The notes under the pieces are model-generated. The model worked only from the letters and a program-made list of their open reading frames with translations, did no database searches and was not told the origin of the DNA. A DNA stretch of 64,000 nucleotides from Polytrichum commune (lineage: Eukaryota; Streptophyta; Polytrichopsida; Polytrichales; Polytrichaceae): the NCBI GenBank assembly GCA_950295325.1, contig OX485806.1:42284001-42348000 (forward strand), read 5' to 3'. This document shows positions 14,163-55,700 of this stretch, in pieces; position 1 is the stretch's first letter; each line of letters starts with the position of its first letter. Position numbers and translations under genes: made by a program.

Positions 14163-15936
14163 TGTCGCAACCCTTGCTAGTTTTCCTTCACTTAGCTTGA
14201 CCGCCTCTCCAACCTAGCAAGTGCCATGAGCGCTAACCTGCACATCCCACGCACATGCATGGTTAGCTCCCAAAACCGCGGACCTTCAAGCTCATGGCTA
14301 GGTCACCAAACCCTCCTACACATGCATTCGGGACTCTCCCCTTAGTAGGTAGCCAATGGCTAAGGTGGACTTCCATCCATGAAAGTCCACTCTTGAGTTG
14401 ATCATCGTGTTGCCAAAACAACACTACAACTACCCGGAGCACATTGCCAAGTATGCTCCGGGGGGGGGGGGTCAGTCGGCTAAGCCGCCTCACCCATATA
14501 AGCCTCTAGGACTTTGGGCGGGGCCCCTACCCCACCATCAAGTATCCTTGTCTCTCTACAAGGGTTGGGGCCAAGTGGACATTTTCCCTTAGCCGCTGGG
14601 GCTAGAACCCCCCCAGCAGCTTCAGACCACCATAACTTCTACATATGATGTCTGATGCTATTAAGCAACCACTCTATCGTCACCTACTCTTTGCGTAGAT
14701 GCCGATGGACTCCTCACTTGCCCCATTCGGGCAAGTATTGAGGAAGTTATGGCTCTTCAAACCTTGGCAGTCCCGGGCACCACTCCCAGGTCACTGCTGT
14801 CCCAGGGTGCTGTCCCGGTACAGTGCCCCACTCAAATGGCCATATCTCCTAGCTAGCACCTCCGATTGAGGTGTTCCTTAGCATTCTAGAATTCCACCGC
14901 CATAAGCTACTCATAACTTATGGCCTTACCCTCATGACTCTTAGTCCCCGTGGGTGAAAGGCGTTCTCAACGCCCGGGGCCCTCACCCACACTAAGAGTA
15001 CTTGGGCCCTCTCACCAATGGCGCCACAAGTCCCGGGTGTCATTCCGGGGTCCCCCTTGTGCCCATGGTGTTGCGGGCACTCCTCATGGAGAGGTGCGCG
15101 ACACTCACCCCAACCAAATGGAGTCGATGCCCTCATCGACTATACTCATAGTCGGCACACCAATTCTCAAGTTGCCATCCTCTCTTGGTGTGGCATTGTG
15201 TTTCCCTCGGGGCGCTTCCCCCACAATGCATCTTCAAATTTGGCAAAGTCCCAAAGGTGTCGTTCCTAGTTGGTCCGTTTAGGTGACCCCGGACATCTTT
15301 GTCCAAGGACCTAAACTACACTATACCCGCCTACTTTGAGACTCACTTGGGTTGCCCTTGCTTTTGGGCCTCCCAAGTTAGGCTCCACTAGCCTAACTCT
15401 ACCATTTTGACACAACTAGGTTGGACCTCAACGTTTCCACTAAGTTGTCTCGGTTGCAACTCCGATATGGCTTTCCATTGTTAAGCCACGCCTCGATTGC
15501 ACGGGGGTGATGCCAAGTCCCGCCGGACTTGGTTCCCACTTTGCTTTTTCGAGACATGGGTTCATGACTCCCATGCGCCAACTCTCGTTAGCTCGCGGGT
15601 TGCACTTTTATGAGCACGCGCCATCACCTTGCCCCCACCCGGACAAGCCCATGGCTAAGAGATTTCTTAGTTTTATCCAAGCCCCCTCTAAGCCATGGCC
15701 CCCAATTACTCGGCCTACCCAACCTAGTTTGGCATATTTATTCCCCCTCTTCCACTAACCAAGCACAAGTACAAGACTAGGACTTCATCCCATACTTTTC
15801 TCTTTGCACCACTAAAGTTGAACTTTATTGCCTCAAGCCAAAGAACACCAATGGCGCCACAAGTCCCGGGTGTCACTCCAGGGTCCCCCTTGTGCCCATG
15901 GTGGTGCGGGCACTCCTCATGGAAAGGTGCGCGACA
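14163..15936 (+). mobile_element. Solo-LTR-like insertion (family B), 1774 bp
   Basis: It begins TGTCGCAACCC and ends GTGCGCGACA, giving TG...CA ends and the inverted pair TGTCGC/GCGACA. The flanking 5-mers are GATGT (14158-14162) and GATGC (15937-15941), a target duplication with one change. The host reading frame is restored when one copy plus the insert is removed. It carries no coding region. A block of about 85 bases beginning TGGCGCCACAAGTCCCGGG occurs twice inside (from about 15019 and 15850). TGGCGCC resembles a primer-binding site, but only one LTR copy is present. Related fragments lie at 31810-33418. Confidence 0.8.
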
Positions 15937-20712: not shown

Positions 20713-23700
20713 ATGCTTTTGAAAGGAGAATGGATGAAGGTTGTTATTTTGAGCTTGATGTATGAGAGTATGGGACATAGAGAAAGAAGCATATGGAGTC
20801 AAGAACGGATGTCTGGATTTGTAGAATGTTTATTGTTGGGATCGTGGACGGAGAAAGAGTTTAGCAAACGAACTCAAGTGACATATAATACTTTCATATT
20901 TTTGTGAGAGAGGTTGGGACCATATTTGAAGAAAGAAGAAATCCGATTTAAATTTATTGTACAAGTGCAAGAAAAAATAGCAATGTCATTGCACATGTTA
21001 AGTAGCGGTAATGGACTACAAAGTAGAGGAGACTTGTATGGAGTTCATAAGAGCACATTATAAAAAATAATGAGGAAATTCTGTAGGACTGTTAGGAAGC
21101 ATTTGCAGCCAATTTTTATACAAACTCCGGATGAATCACAATTTAGGGTTTTAGCCAGAAGGTTTGAACAATTGCATGGTATACCGTATGTTATAGGGGC
21201 GATAGATGGTTCACATATTATTGTTTTAGCTTCAATAATCGGTGAAAAAAATTATTACTATAGGAAATCATTTCACTCAGCAATTTTACAAGGGATTGTT
21301 GAACCAGATTGTATGTTTTAGGATTATGAATTTGGATGGGCAAGAAGTCTACACGATTGGGCCGTATTTCAGGTGACAAAAATTGGACGGGCATATGTAG
21401 AGGAAAATTACCATCCATACAAGCTTGTAGGCGATGCTACGTATCCGGTGAGGCCGTGGATGTACTGTCTGTTTAAAGGTGAAAAGACTGCATTGTCCGA
21501 GAAAAAGATAAACTGGAATTTTATACAGTCTTCAACATAAATGTGTGTAGAAAGGGCATTTCGTATACTGAAGGATAGATGGAGGTTGGTAATGAAGTGA
21601 TCGGAGATGCCATTGAGAAATATGCCAAATATTGTAGTTACGTGTATAGTGTTGTATAATTTATGTATTGTGAACAATGAAGGTCTTGAAAAAGATTGGA
21701 TTGTGGAAGCAAAAAAAAACTAGCTAGAAGAGTTACTGATGGAGAATTACGAAAAGGAAGCGAACTGCGGGGAGAAATAGTGGGGCTTGTGTGGTACTTT
21801 TGGGCCACCCCCTTTCGAGGGAGCCTAAAAGTATCACACAAGCCCTTCGGTGAAGGTGGCCTGCATTTGCAGGCGCCCAAGCCGAACCCGGATGATAGGT
21901 GTATAACGTGAGTAGTTAGATTTTTAAGGGAGATTAAATATGCGTCGTAGTACCTCCGGAGGTTAGGCCTTAGTTTTTTACTAGTGTGGCTTTAAACTCC
22001 ACTAACCAATTTCATATCTAGTTCTAACCTTAACCTACAACCTATTCTACGCGCAGACGCACCAGCCTTGAAACCAAGGCAATCCTAATTTGTGAATTGG
22101 GATGGTTCTGATACACCCAACCGGGTGTGACTCATACCACCCTAACTCAACGAACGGAATAACGACAATTTGATGGACCATTCAATTCTTCCTATTTCTT
22201 TATTTAGTTTTATTTAGTTTTCTAAGCGGGGGAACTTGGCCTAAGTCCCACCCTTCACACAAATTCCTTCTTAATTACTTACTTTTGTTTGCACGTCCTA
22301 ACTTACTACATTAACATATTAGGCATCACCCCTTACCTCGGGTCTCTTGCCAACAAGGGTTTACGATTTATTTTGTATGTTTTGATTGTTAAATGTGTTT
22401 ACACTGGATAGACCACGAAATGCAACTCAATGGGACCAGGGTGACGGGCGACCTGTAGGTTCAACATGTTGCGCAATCTTCATAAATTGGGGCCATTACT
22501 CCCAATCTATGGGGCCAACAACATAATAGTGGATTCGCGGGTCATTAACCCCACCTTTCCACCAACAACATTCAGAGTGGTCGTGTCGGTGATTAATCCG
22601 ACTTACCACACACGAAACTTGCTAATAAATGAAGCTACTACCACAAAACATACCAAGGGCCCCGAAAACAATGGAATTGGGTACTCCCTTGGCGGTCAAG
22701 TGGTCAAGCCACTTGACCTTACGAGATAGGTGAGTGGGTTTAGAGATGCGTACCTTAGCCGTGCTCCCTCCGATCCTAAATGGAAGGCTTAAGGTTAGTT
22801 AATTTACCTCAATTTTCCTCGGTTGATTTGGGCTTGATGTAGGCCGAGCCGCTACCTCCTTCCTTGCTCCACTTTCCGAGCGTCGACCTTGCCTCCTTCT
22901 TTGTAACTAGTTTGGTAGTAAGCGTACCTTAGTTAACAATTAAAATATAAAGTGTTATTCTGCCCTGTAATTTAATCCTAAGCATAATATTTATACTTAG
23001 TGCACCAAATTATCTTTCCAATGATCTAAAAATCACTCTAATCGGATAAGAAATGCAAAAGTTATGAGGGTTGGAAGTGTGAGGTCGATTCAACCGACCC
23101 TTCCAACCCACCTATCTACCTTCTAACTTCAAGAATTCATAGCACATTCCTTACTACTTGGATCTAGGCTTTCCTTATACCATTGGAAAGCTATGAACAA
23201 GCTCTAACTAGAAAAATTATGACATCAGCAGGTTAAGCTAATAGAAATTCAGCGGACTCCTTGTAACACAGCAGTCAATCAAGAAGGCTTAAACTATGTA
23301 TCTCGCCTTCAACAATTCATATCTAATTCAAATCTTAGTCAAATCAAACGTTCTATATGACCCTGGAGAGATATTAAAAATATGTATTTGATAAAAATAT
23401 GTGATTAGAAAGGTAAGCCGAAGTGAACCCAGCAGGTCCTCTGTAATGCAGCAGTCAACCAAAAGTTCTCAAACTATGTGTCCCATCTTGCACAATTCAT
23501 ATCTAATTCAAATCATGCTCAAATCAAATGTTCTAAGCCATTTTGGAAAGCTACACAAAAGTTCTACTTGGGAAAAATATAATTTCTTGGAATTAAAATT
23601 CCTATTGGGCTCGCAGGTCTGATCCAGCAGCCGCTACCCACAAGACCACCCAGTTTTTCTACTCCATCTTTGAAAATCCATAACTAATTGTCATCTCAAC

Positions 23701-24717
23701 CAAATCACAAATGGGAAACGGCTATGGATAGCTATATGAAATCTCTCTAAGAGAAAAATGATAAGTATCTTGTTCTAGCTTTTGAACTAAGCCTTCAGGG
23801 CATTGGCAGATGAGGTCTATAATGCCTCTACTCAAAACTCTACCATCCAACCTACCTCTACAAAAGAAGGAATAATTTTGTTGGTGTGTTAATAAACACA
23901 CAACCTAACTAGGAGAGAGAGAGTAGAGGAGGTTCTCAAGCCTTTCTTTTAGACCATTGAGAATACATGCTAAAGGATTTTTTCCTAACTACATTGAAGC
24001 AGGGCTTCGCCCAAAAACTAGAAAAAGAAAGAGAGCTACAAAGTGGAAGGAGGGGTTTTTAAACCCTCTCACAAAAGGGTTGGACCCCTCCTCCACCGGA
24101 TCCATTTTTCAAACCCTTTCCCGAAATTTTGGCTCGGGGGTTTTTCCGGTTGAGGTTGCCACCCTCTCGCCGAGGTGGCTCCGACAAAAAACCTTTAGAA
24201 ATCTTTCTAATTTTTCCGCCATCGAGTTGGCAAGGGGGCAAGTGGGCAAGTATCCCCCTTGCTCTCTTTCTTTTTTGTCTTCAAAATTCTTCACGCCGAT
24301 TTTATCTTCTTACGTAAAACACCTCCAATAGTCTTGTGTGCCTCACACTAACTAATAAACTAACACTTGCTTAGCTAGCATCTACTAACATTTGCTTAAT
24401 AACTAGCATCTACTAATATTTGCTTAGCTAGTTGTTTTTACTAGCTAGCACATTTTTTCTACTTTGCTATCTTCTAGCACTACTTAGTTTCATTTTGACC
24501 TTCCTTCTTCTAGGCTAAATGCTAAATGAACTAATTTTTCCTAAATTCCCTATCAATTCTAACTTTTAATGCTAACATTCTAACTAAAAGTGATCCCGCA
24601 GAGTGGTGGACCACTCAAAGGGTTCACAGCTTGCTAAAGTGAAGAGAAGGATTATGGCCAAAGATGATGCTCCAATTCCAGACGAAATCAATGATGTTGC
24701 AAATATTTATTTTTATT
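20713..24717 (+). pseudogene. PIF/Harbinger transposase (DDE nuclease), split by a solo LTR
   Basis: Reading from 20713 in one frame gives a Harbinger-type nuclease. The first Asp is in VIGAIDGSHI (about 21193-21220), then EFGWARSLHDWAVF, the second Asp in KLVGDATYP (about 21423) and the Glu in CVERAFRILKDRWR (about 21543-21585). In-frame stops lie near 20905, 21060, 21319, 21538, 21598 and 21721; several fit a single C-to-T or G-to-A change. The frame is interrupted at 21790 by a 2839-bp solo LTR and resumes at 24634 as AKVKRRIMAKDD, ending near 24717. The gene supplied the transposase of the surrounding TIR element. It is not functional as found. Confidence 0.88.
21790..24628 (+). mobile_element. 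2839-bp solo LTR (family S), copy 1
   Basis: It begins TGTGGTACTTTTGGGCC and ends AAAGGGTTCACA, with perfect 5-bp target duplications GCTTG (21785-21789 and 24629-24633). A second copy of exactly the same length lies inverted at 52318-55156, and their small open frames differ by only one or two residues, so both are recent. No protein domain is visible. Inside are diverged internal repeats of the TTCATATCTAATTCAAATC type (about 23120-23700). It most resembles a long LTR left alone after recombination; a non-autonomous LTR element is possible. Confidence 0.88.
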
Positions 24718-32449: not shown

Positions 32450-33418
32450 TGTCGCAACCCTTGCTAGCCCCCCTTGACAATCTTGCCAATTTTCAATTCT
32501 AGCAAAGGTTACGAGCGCTAACCATTCGCATTCCGCCATGCTAATGGTTAGCTCCTCCTACCCCGGACCTTATAGTTCATAGGAGGGAACCAACCCTCCT
32601 ACTTTGCTTTCGGGACTCACCCCTTAATCGGTAACCCATTCCTAGATGTGGACTTCCGTCCTTGGAAGTCCAATCCCATGTTGATCATCGCGTTGCCGGA
32701 GCAACACTACAACAACCCGAACCATACTAGGCAACTATGGCCTCACAATGGGCCAAAGCCCATCGAGGCTGAGCCGTTCGACCTCGGGTGGGTGAGGCCA
32801 CACCACCTCACCCATATAAGCCTCTAGGACTTCACGCGGGGCCCCTACCCCTCCGTCAACCAACCTCTTGTCTCTCTACCAAGAGTTGGGGCCAAGTGGA
32901 CATTTTCCTTTAGCTGCTGGGCCTAGAACCCCCCAGCAGCTTCAGACCATCATAACTTCCTTGTATGATGTCTGATCATAACAACCAACCACTCCATCTT
33001 CATCTATGCTTCACGTAGATGCCGATGGGCTCCTCACTTGCCCCATTCGGGCAAGTATTGAGGAAGTTATGCCTGTTTGAACCTTGGCAGTCCCGGGAAT
33101 CACTCCCAGGCACTGCTGTACCAGGGCGCTGTCCCGGGACAGCGCCCCACTCAAATGGCCATAACTCCTAGATCACACCTCCGATTGAGGTGTTTTTGAG
33201 CTTTCTAGAATCACCATGCCATGAGCTACGCATAACTCATGGCCTTACCCTTGTGCCTCCTAGTCTTCGTGGGTGGGAGGCGTTCCCAACGCCCGGGGCC
33301 CTCACCCACACTAGGATCACTTGGGCCCTCTCACCAACGGCGCCACAAGTCCCGGGTGTCACTCCGGGGTCCCCCTTGTGCCCATGGTGTTTCGGGCACT
33401 CCTCATGGAGAGGTGTCG
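32450..33418 (+). repeat. Family B LTR fragment, direct
   Basis: It begins TGTCGCAACCCTTGCTAG and follows the element at 14163-15936 as far as CTCATGGAGAGGTG, where it is cut off by the methyltransferase fragment. It lacks the second half of the 14163 copy, so the first GGTGCGCGAC near 15090 corresponds to its end. Confidence 0.78.
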
Positions 33419-34121
33419 TAAGTTGGCCTCACTGATGAGTGTGACATCACGAGGGAGATGTGAAAAACACCCACGAATGGCAGTCGGGTGTAACTGCTGT
33501 GGGTACAACACCATCAACTGGTGAAGATGACGACGAGCCACACGGGTGGACACTTGCGAGTTGTCCACATAGACATACCGCTTGACTGTAAGGCCAGCTT
33601 CCAATACGGCTGCTAATCATGTGCCAATGCCCCCAAACAGCTTCACCAAAGTAATCCTAGTGTCTGGAGGGCACCACAAAATGGGGAGTGCCAATGTGGA
33701 TAGACTATCCGATATGATTGGTGTGGTAGAACTGAGAGAGAGGACAATGTTTTCACAGCGTTGGAACAAGTCGGAGGAATCACGCCACAGAGGTAGAGGG
33801 TCCTTAGAATGGCGTACCAAGGTATGCCTAGGTGTCATCTCTCGTGGGTCTTCAACACTCCCCATGAATGCCAATGACTCCTCCAATAATGCGGATCCAT
33901 GAGGCAATGTATCCACCATAGCACTGGATCCAAAAACCATGGATAATGGTGCGATGGTTGCAGCCGTTGCGAATGCCACAGGAATGAGTTCCCTACGACC
34001 GTCTCCAGCCGACCAACCTGGGCGGATCCAAGCCTCCTCAGTCCAGTTGTCCAATCCAAAACCAAGGGGGTAAAGTGCTTGCTGACCAACTAAAATATCA
34101 TAGTTGGTCGCATCCGTCACC
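33418..34121 (-). pseudogene. Inverted fragment of retrotransposon protease-methyltransferase region
   Basis: On the minus strand this matches 38083-38790 of the methyltransferase retrotransposon. It runs from the protease end TDATNYDILVGQQALYP through the linker to KLFGGIGT (motif I) and stops just after LISEANL. A frameshift separates the motif I part (33359-33604 frame) from the linker (33617-34120 frame). The catalytic PCQ motif and everything downstream are absent. Both junctions are abrupt, with a family B LTR on one side and an LTR piece of the same retrotransposon on the other. Confidence 0.85.
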
Positions 34122-34250
34122 CTCTATTTACACTATTGGATTCTCCCTTGGTGGAGTGAGAGATAGCTTGATTAATTGTGTACATTTGAAGAGAGATGTA
34201 GAGCTCTTGTGAGTGTTCTACTCTCTTCCTTCTCACTTCGCAAGAATGCG
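34122..34250 (+). repeat. LTR fragment of the methyltransferase retrotransposon
   Basis: CTATTTACACTATTGGATTC and the next 110 bases match 42722-42832 inside the 3' LTR, then diverge after CTCTCTTCCTT. It may be what is left of the 5' LTR of the element, its first half having been replaced by the inverted fragment at 33418-34121. The LTR 3' border cannot be fixed because the 3' LTR is also incomplete. Confidence 0.65.
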
Positions 34251-35100: not shown

Positions 35101-35735
35101 TTGGGATTGCTTTTAGGAATCGTGTTGCACGAAATTTCTGAGGAGTGTCATTGGAAATTGGGTGGAATATGGAATTCCGTTCGGCCTAAAATAAATTATT
35201 ATTAGGGTCGAATTGTGTTTGTCAACACATATTCCCGGCATTCTTGTGAGGAGGGATTCTTAGGTTGTAGTGGGAAGATGAGAGATGTACATAGGTAATA
35301 TTTCATTTTCTTAAGCAACAGGGGCTCTTCATTTTGACCACCAACCGCAGGCGGGTGCCGGTTGGTCGCGGTCGCTTTCAATTGTTTAAGTGTTGTTTTG
35401 GGGAAAAGGATCCAATGTTGTTATTGCATTGTTCCTTGTATTTTGTTGTGGTACCTTTCCCCGTGGCGGGCTGTTGTGTTGGAGTTTTTCAACATTGCCC
35501 CATTTTTGTGTTGTCCTAGTTTGTGATAGGGTATTGTGGGGGTGAGGTCGGAGTAATGACCGAGGAGACCCTTGTGTGTGTACCAAGTGGGCGGTGCTTG
35601 TATTCCCTTATAGTGAGGCTGGATTGATGACCAGCAGACCATAAGATTTGGTGGTGGTTGCAGGTGCAGGTTGCTTTTACCCTAATACCACATTAGTTTA
35701 GGTTGTTGGCTCCAGTGACCAAATCCATTGCGGGT
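35101..35735 (+). other. Leader (non-coding 5' region) of the methyltransferase retrotransposon
   Basis: This stretch aligns along its length with 63040-63610, including GGGTATTGTGGGGGTGAGG and GACCCTTGTGTGTG, although the frames differ, so it is conserved as nucleotide sequence. It precedes Gag in both copies. A primer-binding site was not recognised. Confidence 0.6.
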
Positions 35736-37769
35736 TTATGGTTACAACTCGGAGCCAACATCATCGTTCTCCGTCTCCGGCATCATCGCAAGGTCAATCT
35801 TTATACCCGTGATAGCACCCGACGAGGTTTTTTAGCCTACTTCGGCGTGGGGGACTGCCACTCGGTCTCACGTCCTTTGGGTGGGATCCTTTGACGAGAT
35901 GGAGGAGGAGACGCGAGGCGGCATCCGGGACCGATTTTCTGGTCCAGCGGGGACCATTTCCTTGCAAGATTGGAAAATTTGGTTCAGAATATGGATGAGG
36001 GAGAAGCGTCAACGCAATACCAACTTCAATGATTGGTATGCGTTCGAGCTTCTGTCACAGCATTTGGAGCACGAAGCTCTCCAAACCTATGAGTAATGGA
36101 CGGATGCTCATTGGATGGAGTTGTGCCAAGTGGAGCGGTACTGGGAGACTCGGGTTGAGTTGGTGTCCGCATTGAAGGAAGGCGCAGCTTCCAGTTTGAT
36201 GGCCGTTCCTGAAGTTAAGCCAGAGGTACCGGAGGGAGATATGTGGTGGATGTGGAGGGAGCTCCTCCTGGTGAGTCGAGGGCTAGGGGTCCTGCTCTTG
36301 CCGCGGCGAGTACTTCGAGCCCCATTCTTCCACTGTCACGTTATGCCCAGGCTACCCAGGCGGCATTAGCTTCTTTAGGAGCTCCGCCGGATTTTGGTCC
36401 TCTGCAGGAATTCCAACTCCATTTGGAGGAGGAATATGGAGGCTTCCGCCGCGATCAAATGCAGCGTATCCAGGACTTTCGACGGGAGAAAGATGACACA
36501 CCTCGTACCATGTACACGAGGTTGGTGAGGTTTGCCAGGGAATCTGGAGGTGTTTTTGCTAAGAGCCAGTTGGTAAAGGTGTTTTTGTCAAAGATTGACA
36601 AACGCCTCATTGACTTAGCTTTGCCCAGGATCATCATGGATTTTGGTGGCCAAGCGACATTTGCGGAAGCTTTCGCCATTGTTGAGCAGTGTGATCGTGC
36701 ATTGTGTCAGCACGACTCCACTGACTTGGTGTCCATGCTAGTGGATTCTAGCAAATCCCGGAAAGTTCCGGTTGCGACTGCGGGGTTGGCGGAGGCAGAA
36801 ATGGACAGGACCTTGCATTGTTCGTCTTGTGGGCAGGCGGGCCATGCTAAGAAAGATTGTCCTTCAAAGCAAAAGCAAGCCCAGACCGTCACTACTCCGA
36901 AGCGGAAACCATTTGTTCCCTCTAAGGGCGCGGCAAAGGGGGCGGGTAATCAGTTACCCAAACAGTTGAAGTGTTCCCATTGTGGGCGGAACAATCACGC
37001 AGTGGAGAACTGCTTCGCTCTCCATCCAGAGAAACGTCCTTCTTCCGAACGGGAAAAGACGTTGAAGGCGAAGATTGGTGTCTTAGAGGAGAGGTTCAAA
37101 ACTTTGGCATCATCTAGCCAAATTTTGGACTCACCATCTACCTCCGGAACTAAGGCTAGTTCTTCCACTCCAGATTATTATATGTTTGGAGCTTCTGGAC
37201 AGGTGGTGAGTTCCGCAGCGGTGACACGTGCTCAAACCGTGTCACAATCCACGCCTCCGACCACAGGGGAGTCTGTGGACAACTTACGCGCTCGGAACAA
37301 TGGTCCTGCGGATCAAATTGGCCAGGCACGTCTTCCATTGTCTTTTGGATTGGCTGACGCTGCCCAATCTATCAGTGGTCGTAATCCGAGCTTGGAGGCT
37401 TCGAATCCGGAGACCGACGTGGTGCACACTTTGGCATCCAAAGTGTTGCACATCCCTTTGTTCACAGCGATGGAGTGGTCGTCATCAGATGTCCAACCTG
37501 CTAAGGTTTTTCACCTAGCAGGTAGGATTTTGGAGGGAAAGGCATCCCCATCTTCTTTGACTGTGGCTCAAGCTGCCGCGGACCTTCCTACCACGGAGGA
37601 TCCGGAGGAAGCGGCCAAACGGCGAGCGAGGCTTGCGGCTGAGGCCATTATGTCTTTTGACGCACACACCTCAGATGGCCAAGAGCCCACCTCATCTTAT
37701 GATTCACCAGCCTCCGCAGGTGCAGCTTATCTCTCAAATGTAGCTGCTCGACCTGCTCGCGAGTGTTAA
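35736..37769 (+). pseudogene. Gag of methyltransferase retrotransposon
   Basis: The N-terminal part includes APDEVF (about 35815) and SFDEMEEET (about 35890), also seen at 63740-63835. It continues through GGIRDRF and LSQHLEHEALQTYE, with a stop at 36094. A frameshift near 36240 moves to the frame of 36243-37769. The capsid-like region includes EEYGGFRRDQMQRIQDFRRE and FAKSQLVKVFLSKI. Two CX2CX4HX4C zinc knuckles lie at 36819-36860 and 36972-37013. A low-complexity Ser/Thr/Ala stretch follows. The stop at 37767-37769 (TAA) breaks the link to the protease; the same frame continues beyond it. Confidence 0.85.
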
Positions 37770-38112
37770 CGCATTCGACCTGGCTTTGTACGGATGGTGA
37801 ATGATTCCGAGATTTTGATGGTCCATCGGACTAGGGGCAACCCTATTCGCGTTGCTCCCCAGTGTGTGATGATGGATTCAGGAGCACAACCTGTTATGAT
37901 CGGCAAGACGCTTGGCGCAGGCATTGCGGTTGACAACCGACGACTTGGCTCCATGCCCATTTACCATCGTCACATCTATTGGCCACGTGGAGCGGGCCAC
38001 TGGTTGTACTTGGGAGCCATTACAGCTTAGCTTCTAAGTGAAGCCTGGAGATTCACCCGCACCTCTTTTTCTTAGGTGTGCGGTGACGGATGCGACCAAC
38101 TATGACATTTTA
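37770..38112 (+). pseudogene. Aspartic protease of methyltransferase retrotransposon
   Basis: The catalytic DSGA motif is at 37875-37886, within CVMMDSGAQPVMIGKTLG. The domain ends with NYDILVGQQTLYPLGF (about 38098-38145), the usual D-I-L-x-G close of retropepsins. A frameshift near 38030 separates the halves: the first is in the frame of 37794-38030, the second in that of 38038-38787. Confidence 0.8.
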
Positions 38113-39534
38113 GTTGGTCAGCAAACACTTTATCCCCTCGGTTTTGGTTTGGACAACTGGACAGAGGAGGCTTGGATTCGACCAGGTTGGTCAGCTGGAG
38201 ACGGCCGTAAGGAATTTATTCCTCTGGCCTTTGCCGCGGCCGCCACCATCGAACCATTATCCATGGTTTTTGGGTGCAATACTATTGTGGATACATTGCC
38301 TTATGGATCCGCATTATTGGAGGAGTCATTGGCATTCATGGGGGATGTTGAAGACCCACGAGAGATGGCACCTAGACGTGCCTTGGTGCACCATCCTAAG
38401 GACCCTCTACCTCCGTGGCATGATTCCTCTGGCTTGTTCCAAAAATGTGAGGACATTGTCCTCTCCCTTGGTTCTACCACACATTTCATTCCGGATGGTT
38501 CATCCACGTTGGCACGTCCCATTTTGTGGCGGCCGCCAGACACTGGAATTACTTTAGTGGAGTTGTTTGGGGGCATCGGCACGGGATTAGCAGCCGTATT
38601 GGAGGCTGGCCTTACACTCACACGGTATGTCTATGTGGACAACTCTCAAGTGTCCACCCGTGTGGCTCGTCACCATCTTCACCAATTAATGGTGTTGTAC
38701 CCTCAACAGTTGCCTTCAACTGCCATTCATGGGTGTTTTTCACGTCTACCTTGTGATGTCACACTCATCAGTGATGCCGACTTATGACACTTGGATCCAG
38801 TGGATATGGTGATTGCGGGATGGCCATGCCAGGGCCATTCACATGCTGGAACAGGCGGAGGACTAGAGGATCCCAAGTCTAGTCTATTTTGGGACCTCAT
38901 TCGCCTCATGCAGTGGTGGTAGTCCCACCAACCTTTCCGTCCAGGGTATATTTTCGAGAATGTACCTTTGTTGGGAGACTCTCGGGACAAGGTGTTGGAA
39001 GGCGATTATTATGTTCGTCAACACCTTAGAGATCCCATTTTTGTGGATGCCACGAGCATTGGTTCTTATGCCCACCGGCCTCGGTGGATTTGGACCAACC
39101 TCGCACCATCATCTACTTTAGCTACAGCATTTTCTGCGGTGCCTCCACCTTTTGATCAAAAGGTGGATGACATCTTGGATCCAAACCGGACTTCTTTGCC
39201 GGTTGTTCGAGATAATTTACCCCCGTTGGCATTGGTCAACAAAATGGGGGCACCACGGCGGGCCTTTCCCACATTTATGACGTTTCCACAGTCATTCGCT
39301 TTCCGCGATAGGGGGCCGGGTATGGTGTGGGATGTTCACACCAAAACCCACACCGAACCATTGGCTGACGAACGGGAGCGTGCCATGGGATTCCGCAGTG
39401 GCACCACCGCAGCTCCCGGCCTTTCTGAGGGCCAACGACGCTTCGTGTTGGGCCAAACTATGGATCTTCATACCATGGTGTGGACTGTTGCTTTATGCCT
39501 TTCATTGCCAAGGCATCGTGGTGACCAATAGTTG
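38113..39534 (+). pseudogene. C5 cytosine DNA methyltransferase domain (DNMT3/DRM-like) in polyprotein
   Basis: After a linker, the domain begins with motif I LVELFGGIGTGL (core 38563-38586), the SAM-binding loop. Motif IV is AGWPCQGHS with the catalytic Cys codon at 38827-38829. Motif VI is FENVP with its Glu at 38956-38958. Motif VIII AHRPRW has RxR at 39076-39084. The end carries RAMGFRSG and RRFVLGQTMDLHT, matching motifs IX-X of DNMT3-type enzymes. Motifs are in order I-IV-VI-VIII-IX-X with no DRM-style rearrangement. Catalytic residues are intact, but stops at 38785 (TGA), 38920 (TAG) and about 39529 (TAG) break the frame. It would transfer a methyl group from S-adenosylmethionine to cytosine C5. 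Confidence 0.9.
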
Positions 39535-40645
39535 TCTCTGGGGGCAGAGGACTCTGGTCAGGGGGCACAGCAGTCCACACCCATGGAGGAAGGAATTCAC
39601 GCCATGGTTGGAGAAGCCGAACGAATTTCTCAATTCGAGCAGCATGTGATGGAGGAGCTTTGAGCTCAATATTTTTACACTGCTTCAGTTTCTTCGCCTC
39701 CGGTGGTGGCTTCATCATCACATATTGGTGGTTATGAAGAAATGTCAGACTCTAGTGCTAGCACCGAGACTGGGGGCATGGTTAAGGCCCCCTCCTCTCA
39801 TTAGCAATTAGAGTCTGTGCCAGCATCAGGTGGTTCTCCTTTGGTGGAGAGGGAGACTACAGAGTTTGATGATTGGCTACTTGAATTAGGCCTTCGTCTC
39901 ACTGGTGCTGAGGCACGGAAGGTACGAGCATTTATTCGCTCGTACCGTAGATGTTTTGCTTTTAGCCTTCAGGATCTTAAAGGTTATAAAGGAAAACCCT
40001 ACCACATTCAGTTGGAGGACGACCATCCCATTTTTCGGAGACCTTACAGGCTCGTTGCCGAGAGCTCTTGGCAGCAGGGCTAATCGAACTTTCCAACGGG
40101 AAATATGCTTGTGCTACGGTTATGCCATCAAAGAAGGATATCTTTGGCAATTGGACGGAGAAACGGATGTGTGGGGATTACCGTCCAGTTAATCGGAAGA
40201 CCAAGTTGGATCGGTATCCCATGCCAATCTCGGAGGAGTTGTTCGATGCCATTGAATTTTCTCGGGTCTTCAGCACCTTGGACTTGAGATCCGGATATCA
40301 CCAACTTCCATTACTTAGGGGAGATCGGGTGAAGACCGCATTTTGGGGAGTTGATCATGATGGGAAAGATCAACTATACCATTGGAAGTTTCTTCCATTT
40401 GGCCTCAAGAATGCGCCTGCTGAGTTTCAGAGAGTGATGGACGAAGTTCTCTCTAGCTCGTCTTTTGCTCGGTGTTACATTGATGACGTAATCATTTTCA
40501 GCAAAACACCACAAGAGCATGTAAAGCATCTTCAAGCCGTTTTTGAGCGATTATGGCGGTGGGGATTGCGCTTGCACCATGGCAAGTGCAAGTTTTTCCA
40601 TGACCGACTAGCATATCTAGGTCATATGATTATCCCATGAGGTCT
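39535..40645 (+). pseudogene. Reverse transcriptase of methyltransferase retrotransposon
   Basis: A linker with stops at 39661 and 39802 joins the methyltransferase to RT in the same frame. RT residues include KGKPYHIQLEDDHPIFRRPYRL (about 39980-40050), a frameshift near 40065, then RMCGDYRPVNRKT, FSTLDLRSGYHQ, FGLKNAPAEFQR and the catalytic CYIDDVIIFS (YIDD at 40476-40487). A TGA stop near 40638 interrupts the connection to RNase H. Confidence 0.9.
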
Positions 40646-41201
40646 TGGGGTGCAACAAGCTAAGGTGGACGCCTTGCAGAAGATCCCGGCACCGGTCGAT
40701 GTGTCGAGACTTTGTGCTTTCTTGGGCTTGGCGAATTACTATCGTCGATTCGTCAAGAACTTCAGCTTGATCGCCAAGCCTCTTACCATTCTCACGAGCA
40801 AGGACCAACCTTGGGCTTGGGGTCGTGAGCAGCAACAGGCATTTGAGACATTGAAGCAGAAACTGGGTGCAGCTCCAGTGCTTCGACGTCCGGATGTTTC
40901 CAAATCCTTCCAGTTGCATACGGATTGGAGTTTATTGGGTTTGGGAGTAGTTCTCACTCAGAAGGATGATTTTGGCCGGGAGTATGTTGTTGCTTACGCT
41001 TCGCGAAGAAATAACACGGCGGAGGTTAATTATTCGTCCTACGAAGGAGAAGCATTGGCGGCGGTATGGGCTATTGCCCATTTTCGGCCGTATCTTTATG
41101 GTGAGCACTTTACTTTAGTGACTGACCATCAGCCGTTACGGTGGCTCATGGAGTCGGATAAGCTTACTGGCAAGCTTGCCAAGTGGGCTTTGTTGCTCTA
41201 G
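40646..41201 (+). pseudogene. RNase H of methyltransferase retrotransposon (C-terminus deleted)
   Basis: It starts with the RT connection (VDVSRLCAFLGLANYYRRFV) and continues with FQLHTDWSLLGLG (first Asp), YSSYEGEALAAVWAI (Glu) and FTLVTDHQPLRWL (Asp). It stops at 41199 (TAG, expected CAG). The Asn/Asp-containing end of the domain is missing because of the deletion at about 41225. Confidence 0.88.
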
Positions 41202-41935
41202 GAATATGACTTTGAGTTGGATCGTGTGTTGGTACGTTTTGGAGCACCGGCTGAGGTGTTGACGGACCAAGGGAAGGAGTTCCTTGGTACTTTTGAGGAG
41301 TTGTGCACCAAGGCGCTCATAGATCACCGCACCACCTCTCGGGATCATCCGGAGGCAGATGGCTTGGCTGAACAGGTTGTTCAGACAACCAAGCATGGTT
41401 TGAGGAAGTATGGATTACTTTGGGGAAGCCACCGGGATTGGGACCTTATGTTGCCTTGGATTGCTATGGGCTATCGATTTGGTAGGCAGGCCTCTTTGGC
41501 ATCCTACAGCCCGTATAAGTTATTGTATGGACGTGAGCCTATTCCCCCGAGTTCTATTCGGGAAAAGTTAGCTCCTGTTGTGGACTTGGATGACCCAAAC
41601 ATTTGGGCAGAGTGTTTGCAGGAGCGGGCTCAATTCTTCCAGAGAGCCATGCCTATGGCCATGGAGAATTTGTCCATTGCTCAACACTGTGACACATTGC
41701 GTTATGCACGCATTTGCAGTGGTGCTTACCGACCTCAGTTGCGGAGATTTCGGCAAGGGGATTATGTTTATCTCCAACTTGAGGCGCCTACAACATTGGA
41801 TGTCAGGGCGGGGCGCACTATCCTTCGGGTGAAGGAGGTGTTGCCGAGTGGTTTGTTGTTGTTGGAAGGCAAGGATGGCAGGGAATGTCGCGAGCATTCC
41901 AAAAACTGTGCCCATGTCATCTACCCATTGAGGGT
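41202..41935 (+). pseudogene. Integrase, C-terminal half only
   Basis: After YDFELD, sequence that should continue RNase H jumps at about 41225 to RFGAPAEVLTDQGKEF, the second catalytic Asp region of the integrase. The HHCC zinc finger and first catalytic Asp are absent. Downstream come HPEADGLAEQ (Glu), YSPYKLLYGREP and FRQGDYVYL in the C-terminal SH3-like part. The join is in frame, as though a deletion (I guess near 0.8-1 kb) fused RNase H to integrase. Confidence 0.85.
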
Positions 41936-42127
41936 ACAGTTCATCCTGAACTGGCCGTCGTGCCAGAGGGTCTTCCATGTTTTGTGTGTGGAGAGAAGAA
42001 AGGAGCGGCTACTATGCTCTTGTATGATCAGTGTCAACGTGGTTGGCACATGACATGTTTGAGGCCACCTTTGACTTCTCTACCATCTGGACAGTGGAGT
42101 TGTCCTCGCTGTCGAGGATCTTCATGA
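41936..42127 (+). pseudogene. PHD-type zinc finger at C-terminus of polyprotein
   Basis: After the integrase, a frameshift near 41910 leads into PCFVCGEKKGAA...DQCQRGWHMTC...QWSCPRC (41978-42112) and a TGA stop at 42125-42127. The Cys/His spacing and the W near the end are those of PHD fingers, which bind histone H3 tails. It sits where chromoviruses carry a chromodomain. The third zinc ligand is Tyr (TAT at 42023-42025) where LLCDxC is expected; a G-to-A change of TGT explains it, so this copy would not fold correctly. Confidence 0.85.
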
Positions 42128-42388: not shown

Positions 42389-42398
42389 AAGGGGGGCA
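42389..42398 (+). promoter_or_regulatory. Polypurine tract (plus-strand primer)
   Basis: AAGGGGGGCA stands immediately before the LTR start TGTCGAG, the usual position of the plus-strand priming site. Confidence 0.75.
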
Positions 42399-42834
42399 TG
42401 TCGAGATGTGTTGTTCATGTGTGACCATGTTATGTTTTAGTGTTGTTTATTAATGGTGGTTGGTACTCGAGCTGCAGTGACACACGATCGGTATTTACAT
42501 GACAGCTGTGACGGTATGCGGCGTCAGCGATCACACCTTATCCGTTGGACTTCATCCATGTTTTGGATGAACCTTAGTTTTGGAAAGTGAGGCTCCTAAG
42601 TGAGGAGCCTCCTCCTTGGCTTGGCATTCTTGCCAAGTCAAGTCTTGTAAGTTAGTGTGTGAAGAGAGCTTGTGTGAGGTGTAGATTGCGTGATTTTGCA
42701 ATAAATTTTGAGTTCTTCTCCCTTTATTTACACTCTTGGATTCTCCCTTGGTGGAGTGAGAGATAGCTTGACTAATTGTGTGCATTTGAAGAGAGATTTA
42801 GAGCTCTTGATAGTGTTCCACTCTCTTCCTTGTC
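42399..42834 (+). repeat. 3' LTR of methyltransferase retrotransposon (3' end lost)
   Basis: It starts TGTCGAGATGTG directly after the polypurine tract. The stretch 42722-42832 is shared with 34122-34232. It stops abruptly at CTTCCTTGTC without a CA end, where a second LTR start begins. Confidence 0.78.
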
Positions 42835-42941
42835 TGTCGAGGTGTGTTGTTTATGTGTGACCTTGCTATGTTTTAGTGTTGTTTGTTAGTGGTGGTTGGT
42901 ACTCGAGCTGCAGTGACACACGATCGGTATTTACACGACAA
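42835..42941 (+). repeat. Second copy of the first 107 bp of the LTR
   Basis: TGTCGAGGTGTG...TTTACACGACA repeats 42399-42505 with a few differences. Its ends form TGTCG/CGACA. It may come from template switching during reverse transcription or from recombination between tandem elements. Confidence 0.75.
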
Positions 42942-49640: not shown

Positions 49641-52600
49641 CACATTTGTGCAAAACCATTACGTTCGAATCCGTACGGTGGGATCATTTGCTTCGACACA
49701 CCTTAGGTCCTCTTCAGACTCGTCTGTGCTGAAATCATCATTTGTTTGGGGAGTCGCGCTCCGAAGGTGCAACTCTCGGTCAAGTTGTGAGATAATTATC
49801 TTCTTGGCGGGCCGGGAGCCCTCTACATCCTGTATGTCATTTTCATCTAGATGTGGTCTACCCTCATCTTCATTGTAGTCTTCTACAATAAACGGAAGCG
49901 ATCTTCCCTAATACCTCTTCCTAGTACATTTGATACCTCTCATAGTTTTCAGGCGCCCTCCACCCGTACCAGGACTTGAATGCACTTCATCTCTACTTCC
50001 ATCTATAATTGCATCCCCCACTGTACTTCCACCTCCAACTCCGAGACCACCTCTTCCATCGGATTGACTGTGTGGAAGCGAAACTGATGCGGGTGGAATT
50101 GCAATTGGTATGTTCTCAACAACATGTCGATGAACAGATGGACGGCGTGGCGCCTCTATAGCAACATTTCTTGAAATATTGTGTATAGCAACCAAAGTAG
50201 CACCCACAGCAATTGCACGTAAAACACCCAATCAAGAAGTATTGGCAATACTTCGAGTGAGAGGACGATGTTGACGTTGTACATGCACTTGCACCGTAGA
50301 GGTGGATGCAATTTCTTGAAGAGCACGAAATCGAGTTATAGGCATTTCAGCAACATTGGGCGTTTGAACTTCTATACGATGGTTGGATATGAGGGAGGCT
50401 TCCATGGATTCAGAATGTACTATGGCTGGAAGTGGATCCTGTTGAACATGCGTTGGCTCATTTGCGGGTAGTACATTGTCACCTCCACCAAAAGAAAGAT
50501 AATCGCTATGAGGTTGCAAGGAATCTACTTCAATTCCTACATTCTCTGTTGCCCCCATAACAACATTATGGTCAGAGGGAAAACCTTATTCAGTATGGAG
50601 GGTTTCAAAAGGTGGTCCTCCAATAGACCCCTCATGATCGTCATGCATTCCGTCGTTATGATGGGGGACATCCGTTTCATCAAAATCAAACACCCCAAGG
50701 TTTCCATCACTACCATTGCCATCATCATCTTCTGAATTATGATTCTCTGAATCGAGATCATCCAAATCAAAGTCAATGTCATCAACATTGTTGTCATCAT
50801 CATTTCCGGCCCTATCATTTGGATCCACGTCATCTTCGTTGTCATCTTCTTTGTCAAGGTCATCGTCAGAATGGACCTCATTCAATTCGTACCATTGCGC
50901 AGGTTTTGGGCCCCTCCGATGTCAAATGAGCCTACTATTGGTATATATGTAGACGAGGTCCTCAACACGACTATGCTTCAAGCGATTGCGACTCTTGTTG
51001 TGAACATATGAGTACATGCTCCAATTGCGCTCACATGCGGATGCGGAACATACTTGTGCAAGGATATGTCTTGCTATTGTTTGGAGGGCCTTAGCTCCAC
51101 CTCCCATTGCATCCCACCATTCATGGAGAGGTGCGGCATGCACGTTCGGGTCTGTAGAATCAACAAAAGGCCCTCGATTTTCAAGGAAATCTTGGTACTG
51201 GTGGAGGATTTGGACATAAGTGTCCTCATCTGGAGCAAGCCTACGAATAACTTGATTTAGGATTGTACTCGAATTCTCATCCTCATGGAGTGGGGCCCAA
51301 CCACGTAGAAGTGGATTTAACATCGCTCCAGCCCAATGAAGATCATTCAACATCAACCTCCATCTATTTTGAAACATTAGCATAGCATTTGCAGCAAGCT
51401 CAAGGCTTAAACGAAATGGAGGTTTATTGAATCCACGAATATGGGTTTGTAAATCATGCATGACCTTCCAAGCCAATCCCATTGGAGGCGCCTTGCCATC
51501 AAATACACAAAGAGCTTTAACAACCGGGATCACCATATACAAGAAATTTTCACACGTGTTCCAGAATCCATCGGAATGTATAAAACGTCGCACTACAAAG
51601 CCCTTCATGTAAGCGGTGCGAGATCTCCTCCTCAAGTCACGCATTAGAGTAAGCCAATCCTCATCAACCACCATTCTTTCCAAAGCATTGCGTATTTGAA
51701 GAAGACGTTCTATCATGATGAAGTTCGTTGCAAAACGGGTCTCTACAGGTAGGCGGAGTGAGAGATTTGGTGATAACCTCCGGAATATAGCTTGATAAGC
51801 ATGATGGTTTTTAACAAAAACACAAATATGGCACGCTTTTTTTACCAACTTTTTCACCCATTCCTCCTTCCCCCAATCTTCTAAGAGGAGATCTAGGCAA
51901 TGCGCAGCACATCCTTGAGAATATAGATCGGGATTTGCTCGAATCAAGTCGCGAGCAGCGGAGGCCATAACTGGGGCATTGTCGGTGCAAACTTGGACCA
52001 CATTATGTCGACCAACCTTTTCCACAAATGGTTGAATTTGAGCAGCAACGTAGACATGATCCTTGTGATTTCCCGTAGTATCAATGGTACCCAAGAGAAC
52101 GTCTCCCTTTGTGCCACATTGAAGAACGTTTAGGAGAGGTCGGTTTTGCACGTTGTCCCATCCATCACAACATATTGTAACGCCATATTTGTCAATGGAA
52201 TTCCCCAGCTTCTCCTTCACTTGCCTATCTAGATCAACTTTTTTAGCAGTTAACAACTTCGTACGGATTGCATTGTACGATGGTGGTGTGTAGGCTGGCA
52301 TTCGATGGCGAGCAGTTTGTGAACCCTTTGAGTGGTCCACCACTCTGCGGGATCACCTTTAGTTAGAATGTTAGCATTAAAAGTTAGAATTGATAGGGAA
52401 TTTAGGAAAAATTAGTTCATTTAGCATTTAGCCTAGAAGAAGGAAGGTTAAAATGAAACTAAGTAGTGCTAGAAGATAGCAAAGTAGAAAAAATGTGCTA
52501 GCTAGTAAAAACAACTAGCTAAGCAAATATTAGTAGATGCTAGTTATTAAGCAAATATTAGTAGATGCTAGCTAAGCAAGTGTTAGTTTATTAGTTAGTG

Positions 52601-55600
52601 TGAGGCACACAAGACTATTGGAGGTGTTTTACGTAAGAAGATAAAATCGGCGTGAAGAATTTTGAAGACAAAAAAGAAAGAGAGCAAGGGGGATACTTGC
52701 CCACTTGCCCCCTTGCCAACTCGATGGCGGAAAAATTAGAAAGATTTCTAAAGGTTTTTTGTCGGAGCCACCTCGGCGAGAGGGTGGCAACCTCAACCGG
52801 AAAAACCCCCGAGCCAAAATTTCGGGAAAGGGTTTGAAAAATGGATCCGGTGGAGGAGGGGTCCAACCCTTTTGTGAGAGGGTTTAAAAACCCCTCCTTC
52901 CACCTTGTAGCTCTCTTTCTTTCTCTAGTTTTTGGGCGAAGCCCTGCTTCAATGTAGTTAGGAAAAAATCCTTTAGCATGTATTCTCAATGGTCTAGAAG
53001 AAAGGCTTGAGAACCTCCTCTACTCTCTCTCTCCTAGTTAGGTTGTGTGTTTATTAACACACCAACAAAATTATTCCTTCTTTTGTAGAGGTAGGTTGGA
53101 TGGTAGAGTTTTGAGTAGAGGCATTATAGACCTCATCTGCCAATGCCCTGAAGGCTTAGTTCAAAAGCTAGAACAAGATACTTATCATTTTTCTCTTAGA
53201 GAGATTTCATATAGCTATCCATAGCCGTTTCCCATTTGTGATTTGGTTGAGATGACAATTAGTTATGGATTTTCAAAGATGGAGTAGAAAAACTGGGTGG
53301 TCTTGTGGGTAGCGGCTGCTGGATCAGACCTGCGAGCCCAATAGGAATTTTAATTCCAAGAAATTATATTTTTCCCAAGTAGAACTTTTGTGTAGCTTTC
53401 CAAAATGGCTTAGAACATTTGATTTGAGCATGATTTGAATTAGATATGAATTGTGCAAGATGGGACACATAGTTTGAGAACTTTTGGTTGACTGCTGCAT
53501 TACAGAGGACCTGCTGGGTTCACTTCGGCTTACCTTTCTAATCACATATTTTTATCAAATACATCTTTTTAATATCTCTCCAGGGTCATATAGAACGTTT
53601 GATTTGACTAAGATTTGAATTAGATATGAATTGTTGAAGGCGAGATACATAGTTTAAGCCTTCTTGATTGACTGCTGTGTTACAAGGAGTCCGCTGAATT
53701 TCTATTAGCTTAACCTGCTGATGTCATAATTTTTCTAGTTAGAGCTTGTTCATAGCTTTCCAATGGTATAAGGAAAGCCTAGATCCAAGTAGTAAGGAAT
53801 GTGCTATGAATTCTTGAAGTTAGAAGGTAGATAGGTGGGTTGGAAGGGTCGGTTGAATCGACCTCACACTTCCAACCCTCATAACTTTTGCATTTCTTAT
53901 CCGATTAGAGTGATTTTTAGATCATTGGAAAGATAATTTGGTGCACTAAGTATAAATATTATGCTTAGGATTAAATTACAGGGCAGAATAACACTTTATA
54001 TTTTAATTGTTAACTAAGGTACGCTTACTACCAAACTAGTTACAAAGAAGGAGGCAAGGTCGACGCTCGGAAAGTGGAGCAAGGAAGGAGGTAGCGGCTC
54101 GGCCTACATCAAGCCCAAATCAACCGAGGAAAATTGAGGTAAATTAACTAACCTTAAGCCTTCCATTTAGGATCGGAGGGAGCACGGCTAAGGTACGCAT
54201 CTCTAAACCCACTCACCTATCTCGTAAGGTCAAGTGGCTTGACCACTTGACCGCCAAGGGAGTACCCAATTCCATTGTTTTCGGGGCCCTTGGTATGTTT
54301 TGTGGTAGTAGCTTCATTTATTAGCAAGTTTCGTGTGTGGTAAGTCGGATTAATCACCGACACGACCACTCTGAATGTTGTTGGTGGAAAGGTGGGGTTA
54401 ATGACCCGCGAATCCACTATTATGTTGTTGGCCCCATAGATTGGGAGTAATGGCCCCAATTTATGAAGATTGCGCAACATGTTGAACCTACAGGTCGCCC
54501 GTCACCCTGGTCCCATTGAGTTGCATTTCGTGGTCTATCCAGTGTAAACACATTTAACAATCAAAACATACAAAATAAATCGTAAACCCTTGTTGGCAAG
54601 AGACCCGAGGTAAGGGGTGATGCCTAATATGTTAATGTAGTAAGTTAGGACGTGCAAACAAAAGTAAGTAATTAAGAAGGAATTTGTGTGAAGGGTGGGA
54701 CTTAGGCCAAGTTCCCCCGCTTAGAAAACTAAATAAAACTAAATAAAGAAATAGGAAGAATTGAATGGTCCATCAAATTGTCGTTATTCCGTTCGTTGAG
54801 TTAGGGTGGTATGAGTCACACCCGGTTGGGTGTATCAGAACCATCCCAATTCACAAATTAGGATTGCCTTGGTTTCAAGGCTGGTGCGTCTGCGCGTAGA
54901 ATAGGTTGTAGGTTAAGGTTAGAACTAGATATGAAATTGGTTAGTGGAGTTTAAAGCCACACTAGTAAAAAACTAAGGCCTAACCTCCGGAGGTACTACG
55001 ACGCATATTTAATCTCCCTTAAAAATCTAACTACTCACGTTATACACCTATCATCCGGGTTCGGCTTGGGCGCCTGCAAATGCAGGCCACCTTCACCGAA
55101 GGGCTTGTGTGATACTTTTAGGCTCCCTCGAAAGGGGGTGGCCCAAAAGTACCACACAGTTTCACGCACAACATGAACAAATGCAGGATGTCTCACAATG
55201 TTGAAAGGAATGTTAGCTTCATAAAAAACCGTTGCCCATGCTCTATCAAGGAGTTGTCTTGTTGACACATTGAACCCCTCCGTTATGTTGAGTTGACGTA
55301 ATTCACGAGGAGGTGTGCCATGTGCCACAACACCAGAATGCTGTGTGGATTGGGACATAAGCAAAGGCTCTGTTTCACTATCTACAGAGTCCGCTATAAT
55401 AGGCTCCAGAGGTACATCATCTCGCACCGGAGGGTCCTCATTTACAATGCCTACATGTAAGGGCACAACGCCTCCGCAATGTTCAAACAAGACCCTAATA
55501 TGCGGAGGTACCATCCTACATGTGGAAACATCACTAGGACCCCCTAAAGGAGGTCTATAACCAAGGTGTGCCAACATTCTATTTCCTCGGTAAGATATGA

Positions 55601-55700
55601 CGAACGAGCAAAACCTACATTTAACATGTCTTTATGATTTACCGGGAACCATCCCCTTATCCTGGTACCAATGATCCCATGCATCATTTCGGCGTGGCAT
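49640..55700 (-). pseudogene. hAT-superfamily transposase, split by a solo LTR
   Basis: ATG is at 55700 on the minus strand. A BED-type zinc finger follows (KCRFCSF...HLGY, about 55560-55630). The frame then reaches VVRET at the insertion and resumes at 52317 as ARHRMPAY, so the 2844 extra bases cost no phase. The catalytic part has ICCDGWDNVQNRPLLN and VCTDNAPVMASAARDL, and CAAHCLDLLLEDW. The dimerisation region near the end has SASACERNWSMYSYVHNK. A long acidic C-terminal extension (about 50885-50586) and further tail continue in the same frame to about 49640. Stops interrupt at about 55635, 50922, 50586, 50232 and 49908. In hAT elements this protein cuts and pastes the element at 8-bp targets. 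Confidence 0.9.
52318..55156 (-). mobile_element. 2839-bp solo LTR (family S), copy 2, inside hAT gene
   Basis: On the minus strand it runs TGTGGTAC...GGTTCACA, identical in length to copy 1 at 21790-24628. Perfect target duplications CAGTT (plus strand, 52313-52317 and 55157-55161) flank it. The 124-codon open frame at 52615-52989 differs from that at 23957-24331 by about two residues. It splits the hAT gene between VVRET and ARHRM. Confidence 0.9.

Follow-up and report, generated by a model that had tools for sequence, protein, structure and literature searches.

Gypsy elements that bear a DNA methyltransferase (DNMT) are on record for one charophyte. KnitGypsy-Dnmt3 was described from Klebsormidium nitens, and DNMT3 or other DNMTs are found in DIRS elements and LINEs of dinoflagellates (de Mendoza et al. 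2018, PMC5890265). Methylation of the cDNA was proposed there as the role of the element methyltransferases (MTs). When assayed in yeast, the MT of the K. nitens element produced no methylation, a result that the authors judged inconclusive, and the DNMT3-type enzyme of SymbioDIRS-Dnmt3 methylated CG. According to the figure legends of the same paper, the repeats of KnitGypsy-Dnmt3 are built as in a DIRS element, in the order A-coding-B-A-B.

The element described here lies in a window of Polytrichum commune DNA, the window being the whole stretch of 64,000 nucleotides that was analysed. It resembles KnitGypsy-Dnmt3 in its Ty3/Gypsy domains, its DNMT3-type MT with unrearranged motifs, and the position of the MT before the reverse transcriptase (RT). 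A repeat order readable as A-coding-B-A-B is also seen around the window element, where ordinary LTRs may explain it as well. In contrast, the K. nitens MT is 32% identical to that of the window, and the window element and its intact relative, the contig L054, have the MT in the Gag ORF, ahead of a putative leaky stop, and finish Pol with a PHD finger. Neither the word PHD nor the word readthrough appears in the main text of PMC5890265, and no PHD finger was found in P0093, an incomplete protein from K. nitens. SymbioDIRS-Dnmt3 and SymbioLINE-Dnmt of dinoflagellates likewise carry a DNMT inside a retrotransposon, but have a tyrosine recombinase or an endonuclease in place of the DDE integrase (PMC5890265).

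Animal DNMT3A, DNMT3B and DNMT3C and plant DNMT3 have the same motif order in the catalytic domain and the same AHRxRxxWxNL motif VIII as the element MTs. In the alignment, motif IV is PCN in DNMT3A, whereas it is PCQ in the element MTs. No ADD or PWWP domain was seen in the MT-bearing proteins scanned, in contrast to animal and plant DNMT3. Chromoviruses carry a chromatin-reader module, the chromodomain, at the end of the integrase. The plant chromodomain lineages of Gypsy thus have a reader at the same place as the present element, which has a PHD finger instead of a chromodomain. The main text of a survey of plant LTR elements (PMC6317226) contains neither the word PHD nor the word methyltransferase.

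Transposon methylases are stated to be absent from land plants such as tracheophytes in PMC6338049, and PMC12344493 refers to streptophytes and dinoflagellates. No report of land-plant elements of this kind was found among the matches listed from the literature searched, to which subscription papers mostly did not belong. The occurrence of relatives in liverworts and green algae suggests that this algal oddity persists in land plants too. The reading preferred here, with a probability of roughly 0.7, is that the locus is a decayed Ty3/Gypsy copy in which a DNMT3-type MT is a regular, conserved domain, one that would be packaged at Gag level and mark the cDNA of the element, with insertion steered by the PHD finger.

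Anatomy of the window element

The window element is a pseudogene copy of a Ty3/Gypsy LTR retrotransposon and is incapable of acting itself. The order Gag, protease, RT, RNase H, and integrase, with matching Pfam domains, is that of Ty3/Gypsy elements, and the integrase is truncated. Decay comprises two stops within the MT, frame changes in Gag, protease, and RT, and a deletion in the integrase. The part of Pol that matches residues 483-735 of L054 ORF2 is missing (tblastn). The features of the element and of two further family copies are as follows.

33413-34121, - strand: second, partial family copy with protease end, linker, and MT start; 87% identical to 38082-38790
34120-34234, + strand: repeat A, the truncated end of the 5' LTR; abuts the inverted second copy; 92% identical to 42717-42834
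35738-37766, + strand: Gag, with frame changes and stops; ATG at 35738; located by tblastn with pieces of L054 ORF1
near 36816-37011, + strand: two zinc knuckles of Gag; zf-CCHC E=0.0062, 17 bits, below the Pfam cut-off of 20.8
37770-38150, + strand: aspartic protease; DSGAQ at 37875; frame change between 37906 and 37958
38542-39510, + strand: DNMT3-type C5 cytosine MT domain; stops at 38785 (TGA) and 38920 (TAG); catalytic residues kept
39802-39810, + strand: TAG CAA TTA, a putative leaky stop of tobamovirus type at the ORF1/ORF2 boundary
39805-40637, + strand: RT; PF00078 E=2.3e-30 and tblastn; frame change between 40005 and 40053
40641-41198, + strand: RNase H; PF17917 E=1.8e-34, PF17919 E=1.6e-34
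41202-41930, + strand: integrase, C-terminal part only; rve E=0.00086, 20 bits, below the Pfam cut-off of 32.6
41978-42112, + strand: PHD finger ending the polyprotein; PF00628 E=2.9e-10
42389-42398, + strand: polypurine tract, AAGGGGGGCA, immediately before the LTR
42399-42834, + strand: 3' LTR in the order B-C-A; AATAAA at 42700
42835-42940, + strand: B', second copy of the LTR start; 93% identical to 42399-42504
63284-64000, + strand: third family copy with leader and Gag start, ending at the window edge; 74% identical to 35382-36075

The MT is read in a single + frame (38038-39531), which comprises the protease tail, a linker, and then a full set of C5 MT motifs. Motif I is TGITLVELFGGIGTG, motif IV is GWPCQ, motif VI is FENV, motif VIII is AHRPRWIWTNL (HRPR), and motifs IX-X are DERERAMGF...VLGQTMDLH. 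The order I-IV-VI-VIII-IX-X is unrearranged, and the PC of motif IV, the ENV of motif VI, and the RxR of motif VIII, by which C5 MTs are recognised, are all present. The original prediction, made from the DNA letters, had claimed a continuous motif order with the catalytic Cys, the Glu, and the RxR intact; reading of the sequence places them at 38827, 38956, and 39076 as predicted. Its span of 38113-39534 is slightly wide. The MT domain proper occupies 38542-39510, and 38113-38541 consists of the protease tail and linker.

Pfam recognises the domain as PF00145 in the 44-aa stretch between the two stops (E = 1.4e-9), and no family was returned at E <= 1 for the MT pieces on either side of it. 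A local MT profile, built from 14 relatives (16 rows less P0044 and P0051), matches the window frame over its full length (E = 3e-150, profile positions 2-328). The PHD finger has lost one zinc cysteine to Tyr and reads YDQC, as against CDHC in L054.

The second window copy keeps the order of protease end, linker, and MT start, and is without the RT side. The third copy matches the Gag of L054 in two pieces, at 35% and 55% (tblastn). Between the main and second copies, dN is 0.096 and dS is 0.323 over 235 codons (NG86), a comparison confined to the stretch from protease end to MT start. These values reflect constraint that preceded decay, together with neutral change since.

The repeats are ordered as A (34120-34234), coding, B (42399-42504), C, A (42717-42834), and B' (42835-42940). 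The start of the LTR is repeated straight after the LTR end, and the 5' side retains the LTR end only, which gives the DIRS-like order A-coding-B-A-B. Because B-C-A appears once in L054, this order would also be accounted for by ordinary LTRs, the 5' one truncated and the start of the 3' one repeated in tandem.

Relatives and the intact copy

At E <= 0.001, a protein search with just the MT frame gave 55 proteins and another that let in longer candidates gave 71, 120 of them distinct; each search scored the 8000 candidates sharing most words. The MT is present in 113 of the 120 (local profile). Named relatives comprise Marchantia polymorpha with 8 proteins, Calypogeia fissa with 1, Klebsormidium nitens with 1, and Closterium with 3. 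A land-plant element of this kind, which the original prediction said would extend the known range, is supported by named relatives from Calypogeia and Marchantia among the 120. The contigs that carry Marchantia P0073, P0074, and P0084 measure 21 to 27 Mb, a length that speaks against contamination in these cases, and Calypogeia P0072 lies on a contig of 8.8 Mb. These four contigs show land-plant elements of this kind. One relative filed under a bacterial MAG (P0009) is taken as contamination. Since three of the 8 Marchantia proteins come from such large contigs, the question of why transposons encode a silencing mark is testable in a genetic model land plant. At least one of these proteins, P0074, has a UniRef name that begins with 'DNA (cytosine-5' and is therefore open to mistake for a host methyltransferase gene.

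The order CCHC-protease-MT occurs in 22 of the 120 proteins and protease-MT in 6, with the protease and CCHC located by pattern; these are the 28 proteins with protease and MT in one ORF without RT. The MT stands before the RT in K. nitens P0093, Marchantia P0077, and Closterium P0110. The predicted location between protease and RT of a retrotransposon polyprotein is supported; the element is of Ty3/Gypsy type, and relatives have the MT in the same place.

A genome scan yielded one locus, the intact relative L054, a public contig of 9285 bp. Both of its ORFs are open. ORF1, which encodes Gag, protease, and MT, runs without a stop from 8609 through the contig end as far as 3488. ORF2, with RT, RNase H, integrase, and PHD finger, follows TAG CAA TCA in the same frame and is open to 6635. 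The two ends of the contig repeat the same 127 bp, which fits a circular assembly of a single-LTR element, either a real circle or an assembly collapse. The contig (CADCWO010000201.1) is a plant-type retrotransposon filed with a cyanobacterial MAG, where it is probably a contaminant.

The window element is 87% identical to L054 in RT-RNase H and 84% in the integrase, compared with 62.5% in the MT and 54.5% in the protease end and linker. The lower identity in ORF1 would fit faster evolution of ORF1 or exchange between lineages. That conservation is weaker in the MT than in Pol counts against the preferred reading. The dS of the MT is saturated between the two.

Classification and origin of the methyltransferase

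The enzyme had been predicted to be DNMT3-like, and comparison with PDB points the same way. A profile of 16 relatives matched 56 PDB sequences, and the best 29 are DNMT3A, DNMT3B, or DNMT3C, with E from 1e-23. Below them are 4onj (2e-11), HhaI (1e-9), DRM2-labelled chains (5e-8), and the best tRNA cytosine-38 methyltransferase, of the DNMT2 type (3e-6). The molecule 4onj is labelled only 'DNA methyltransferase' and is presumably tobacco DRM. The L054 MT domain taken singly also has DNMT3 as the top 29 of 49 matches, more weakly (best E = 2e-8), with HaeIII and HhaI ahead of DRM.

Other sources were considered and rejected. The DRM type is ruled out by the canonical, unrearranged motif order. 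The CMT/DNMT1 type is rejected on the motif order and the PDB matches, as no molecule named as DNMT1 or chromomethylase is among the 56 of the profile or the 49 of the L054 domain. A recent bacterial or viral source is rejected on the tree, in which ten viral-contig MTs (the best ten of 53 loci by profile) fall outside. Two scans of viral contigs gave 53 and 28 loci with local identities of 27 to 59%, and no close relative among them.

The MT tree has 103 rows, 28 of them without an assigned architecture, and omits 24 of the 113 MT-bearing proteins, which have <250 aa of the domain. Its outgroups are two mammalian DNMT3 fragments and the ten viral-contig MTs, with no plant DNMT3 gene, and it carries a warning of long outgroup branches. 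All 91 element MTs form one set (99/83) apart from the outgroups. The tree with algal element enzymes that had been called for thus places K. nitens P0093 within the 91. In view of the long outgroup branches, this topology suggests rather than shows a single capture of the MT by the element lineage. The window element and L054 belong to one set of 22 (100/99), and the join of this set to the Marchantia set has 83/91. In the RT tree, built from those 24 of the 120 proteins in which RT and RNase H together span at least 250 aa, the window element groups with L054 (100/99) and then with Marchantia (100/98).

A second architecture has the order RT-RNase H-MT-integrase-PHD, which was found in 15 of the 120 proteins by profile order; others are fragments of that order. 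In the MT tree, all 27 rows with RNase H-MT-integrase are in one set of 29 (100/96), together with two unassigned rows. This set sits in a larger set of 35 that includes K. nitens (97/88). The RT tree likewise groups the 20 such rows and one unassigned row (98/100). Provided that the MT tree is rightly rooted by its outgroups, the protease-MT-RT order would be the older one and the RNase H-MT-integrase order derived.

The Pro of motif IV is replaced by Glu in 23 of 105 sequences, which have ECQ, or ECS/ECK, as against PCQ. The ECQ-type motif is seen in P0083, P0086, P0090, P0091, P0094, P0103, P0110, and others. A pattern search found 14 proteins with Glu in motif IV, namely 2 from Closterium and 12 of the second order (P0116 being a fragment of that order). 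This Glu may alter or end activity. P0118 has an MT at its N-terminus, followed by RT, with Pfam labels of RNase H type (PF00075, PF13456), and is perhaps a different retrotransposon group with an MT.

A wider history can be put forward tentatively. A Gypsy element might have captured a DNMT3 once, before Klebsormidium and land plants diverged, and the enzyme might have been retained from then on as part of a portable marking kit, with Gag-level MT by way of the leaky stop, in-particle methylation of cDNA, and site choice by the PHD finger. A later move from protease/RT to RNase H/integrase would have given the second lineage.

Putative leaky stop and possible roles of the enzyme

The window element and L054 alike place the MT before TAG-CAA-TYA, on the Gag side, and close the polyprotein with a PHD finger. 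The boundary reads TAG CAA TTA in the window (39802) and TAG CAA TCA in L054, a difference within the allowed YYA. Tobacco mosaic virus has UAG-CAR-YYA as the context of its leaky stop, and in plants readthrough reached 32 and 11% at two viral CAA-UYA sites (PMC2754532). Since that paper already mentions candidates for readthrough among the Gypsy elements of rice, leaky stops as such are no novelty in this group. TAG-CAR-YYA accounts for 1 of 101 TAGs on the + strand of L054, the boundary site alone, and for 5 of 887 TAGs in the window, where it is not rare. The ORF1 proteins P0056, P0058-P0064, and others, as well as Marchantia P0073 and P0074, end 70 to 110 residues past the MT. In P0034, P0077, P0093, and P0110, the MT and RT share one ORF, which means that some members of the family, but not all, have the MT on the Gag side. 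The putative leaky stop is a concrete prediction on when and where the MT acts.

The preferred reading can be spelled out as a series of steps. Most ribosomes would halt at the TAG, and the MT would be made within Gag-protease-MT in the amount of the coat protein. A minority would read through the TAG to make Pol. The protease would release the MT inside the particle, where it may methylate the new double-stranded cDNA, or it may act on the new insertion once in the nucleus. The PHD finger on the integrase is predicted to read a histone tail and so steer insertion. A methylated copy would resemble resident silenced DNA, and might in this way avoid damage or a fresh silencing response and limit harm to the host.

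Conservation was counted over 115 sequences, with the window element and L054 included and those gapped at a site left out of its count. The catalytic Cys is kept in 104 of 105 covering sequences, the Glu in 104 of 105, and the RxR arginines in 100 and 99 of 102. This conservation is also compatible with an MT kept to restrain the element or to help the host, by self-silencing of copy number or defence against other DNA, rather than to protect the cDNA. Both ideas have been proposed in print (section 11 of PMC5890265; PMC6338049). The three family pieces in 64 kb speak weakly against strong self-restraint; the anatomy expected is the same as under the preferred reading, and nothing in the data separates the two. 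Restraint or host help is judged unlikely on balance.

The RNA of the element or a primer tRNA in the particle, rather than DNA, would be an improbable target. Such a role was raised for LINE DNMTs in section 11 of PMC5890265, and expression on the Gag side would place the MT with packaged RNA. Against this, the best tRNA cytosine-38 methyltransferase reaches no more than 3e-6 in the PDB profile, compared with 1e-23 for DNMT3. DNMT2, which has the same fold, methylates tRNA.

Chance landing of a host DNMT3 gene or retrocopy in this one retrotransposon copy, the one-off accident against which the original prediction had asked to be checked, has nothing for it beyond the single element taken alone and is ruled out by the second window copy with its MT after the protease, the intact L054, the 28 of 120 proteins with protease and MT in one ORF, and the relatives that keep the MT between protease and RT.

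A depletion of CpG specific to the element was not found, with values of 0.70 in the element, 0.61 in the whole window, and 0.82 in L054. There is thus no footprint of CG self-methylation, a result that tells against a simple account in which the element methylates itself. CAG/CTG stands at 0.75 in the MT element, as against 0.16 of expectation in another Gypsy element at 13211-18739 and 0.41 in a hAT element, and is also high at 44-46 and 58-64 kb. The loss of CAG/CTG in the Gypsy element at 13211-18739 is perhaps due to decay of CHG methylation.

The window has no Rfam match at gathering score, and no tRNA was found in it. Its hAT transposase at 50922-52352 has its best named match in the moss Ceratodon purpureus (58% over 98%, among the best 120 of 202 matches). 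Together with the liverwort relatives of the element, this match favours a bryophyte source, and a streptophyte alga or a mixed assembly is unlikely. An element of 2841 bp occurs in two inverted copies, 21788-24628 and 52318-55158, which are 99.75% identical. The copy at 52318-55158 splits the hAT transposase (55035-55631 and 50922-52352), and this insertion, together with the near identity of the copies, indicates that the 2841-bp element moved recently.
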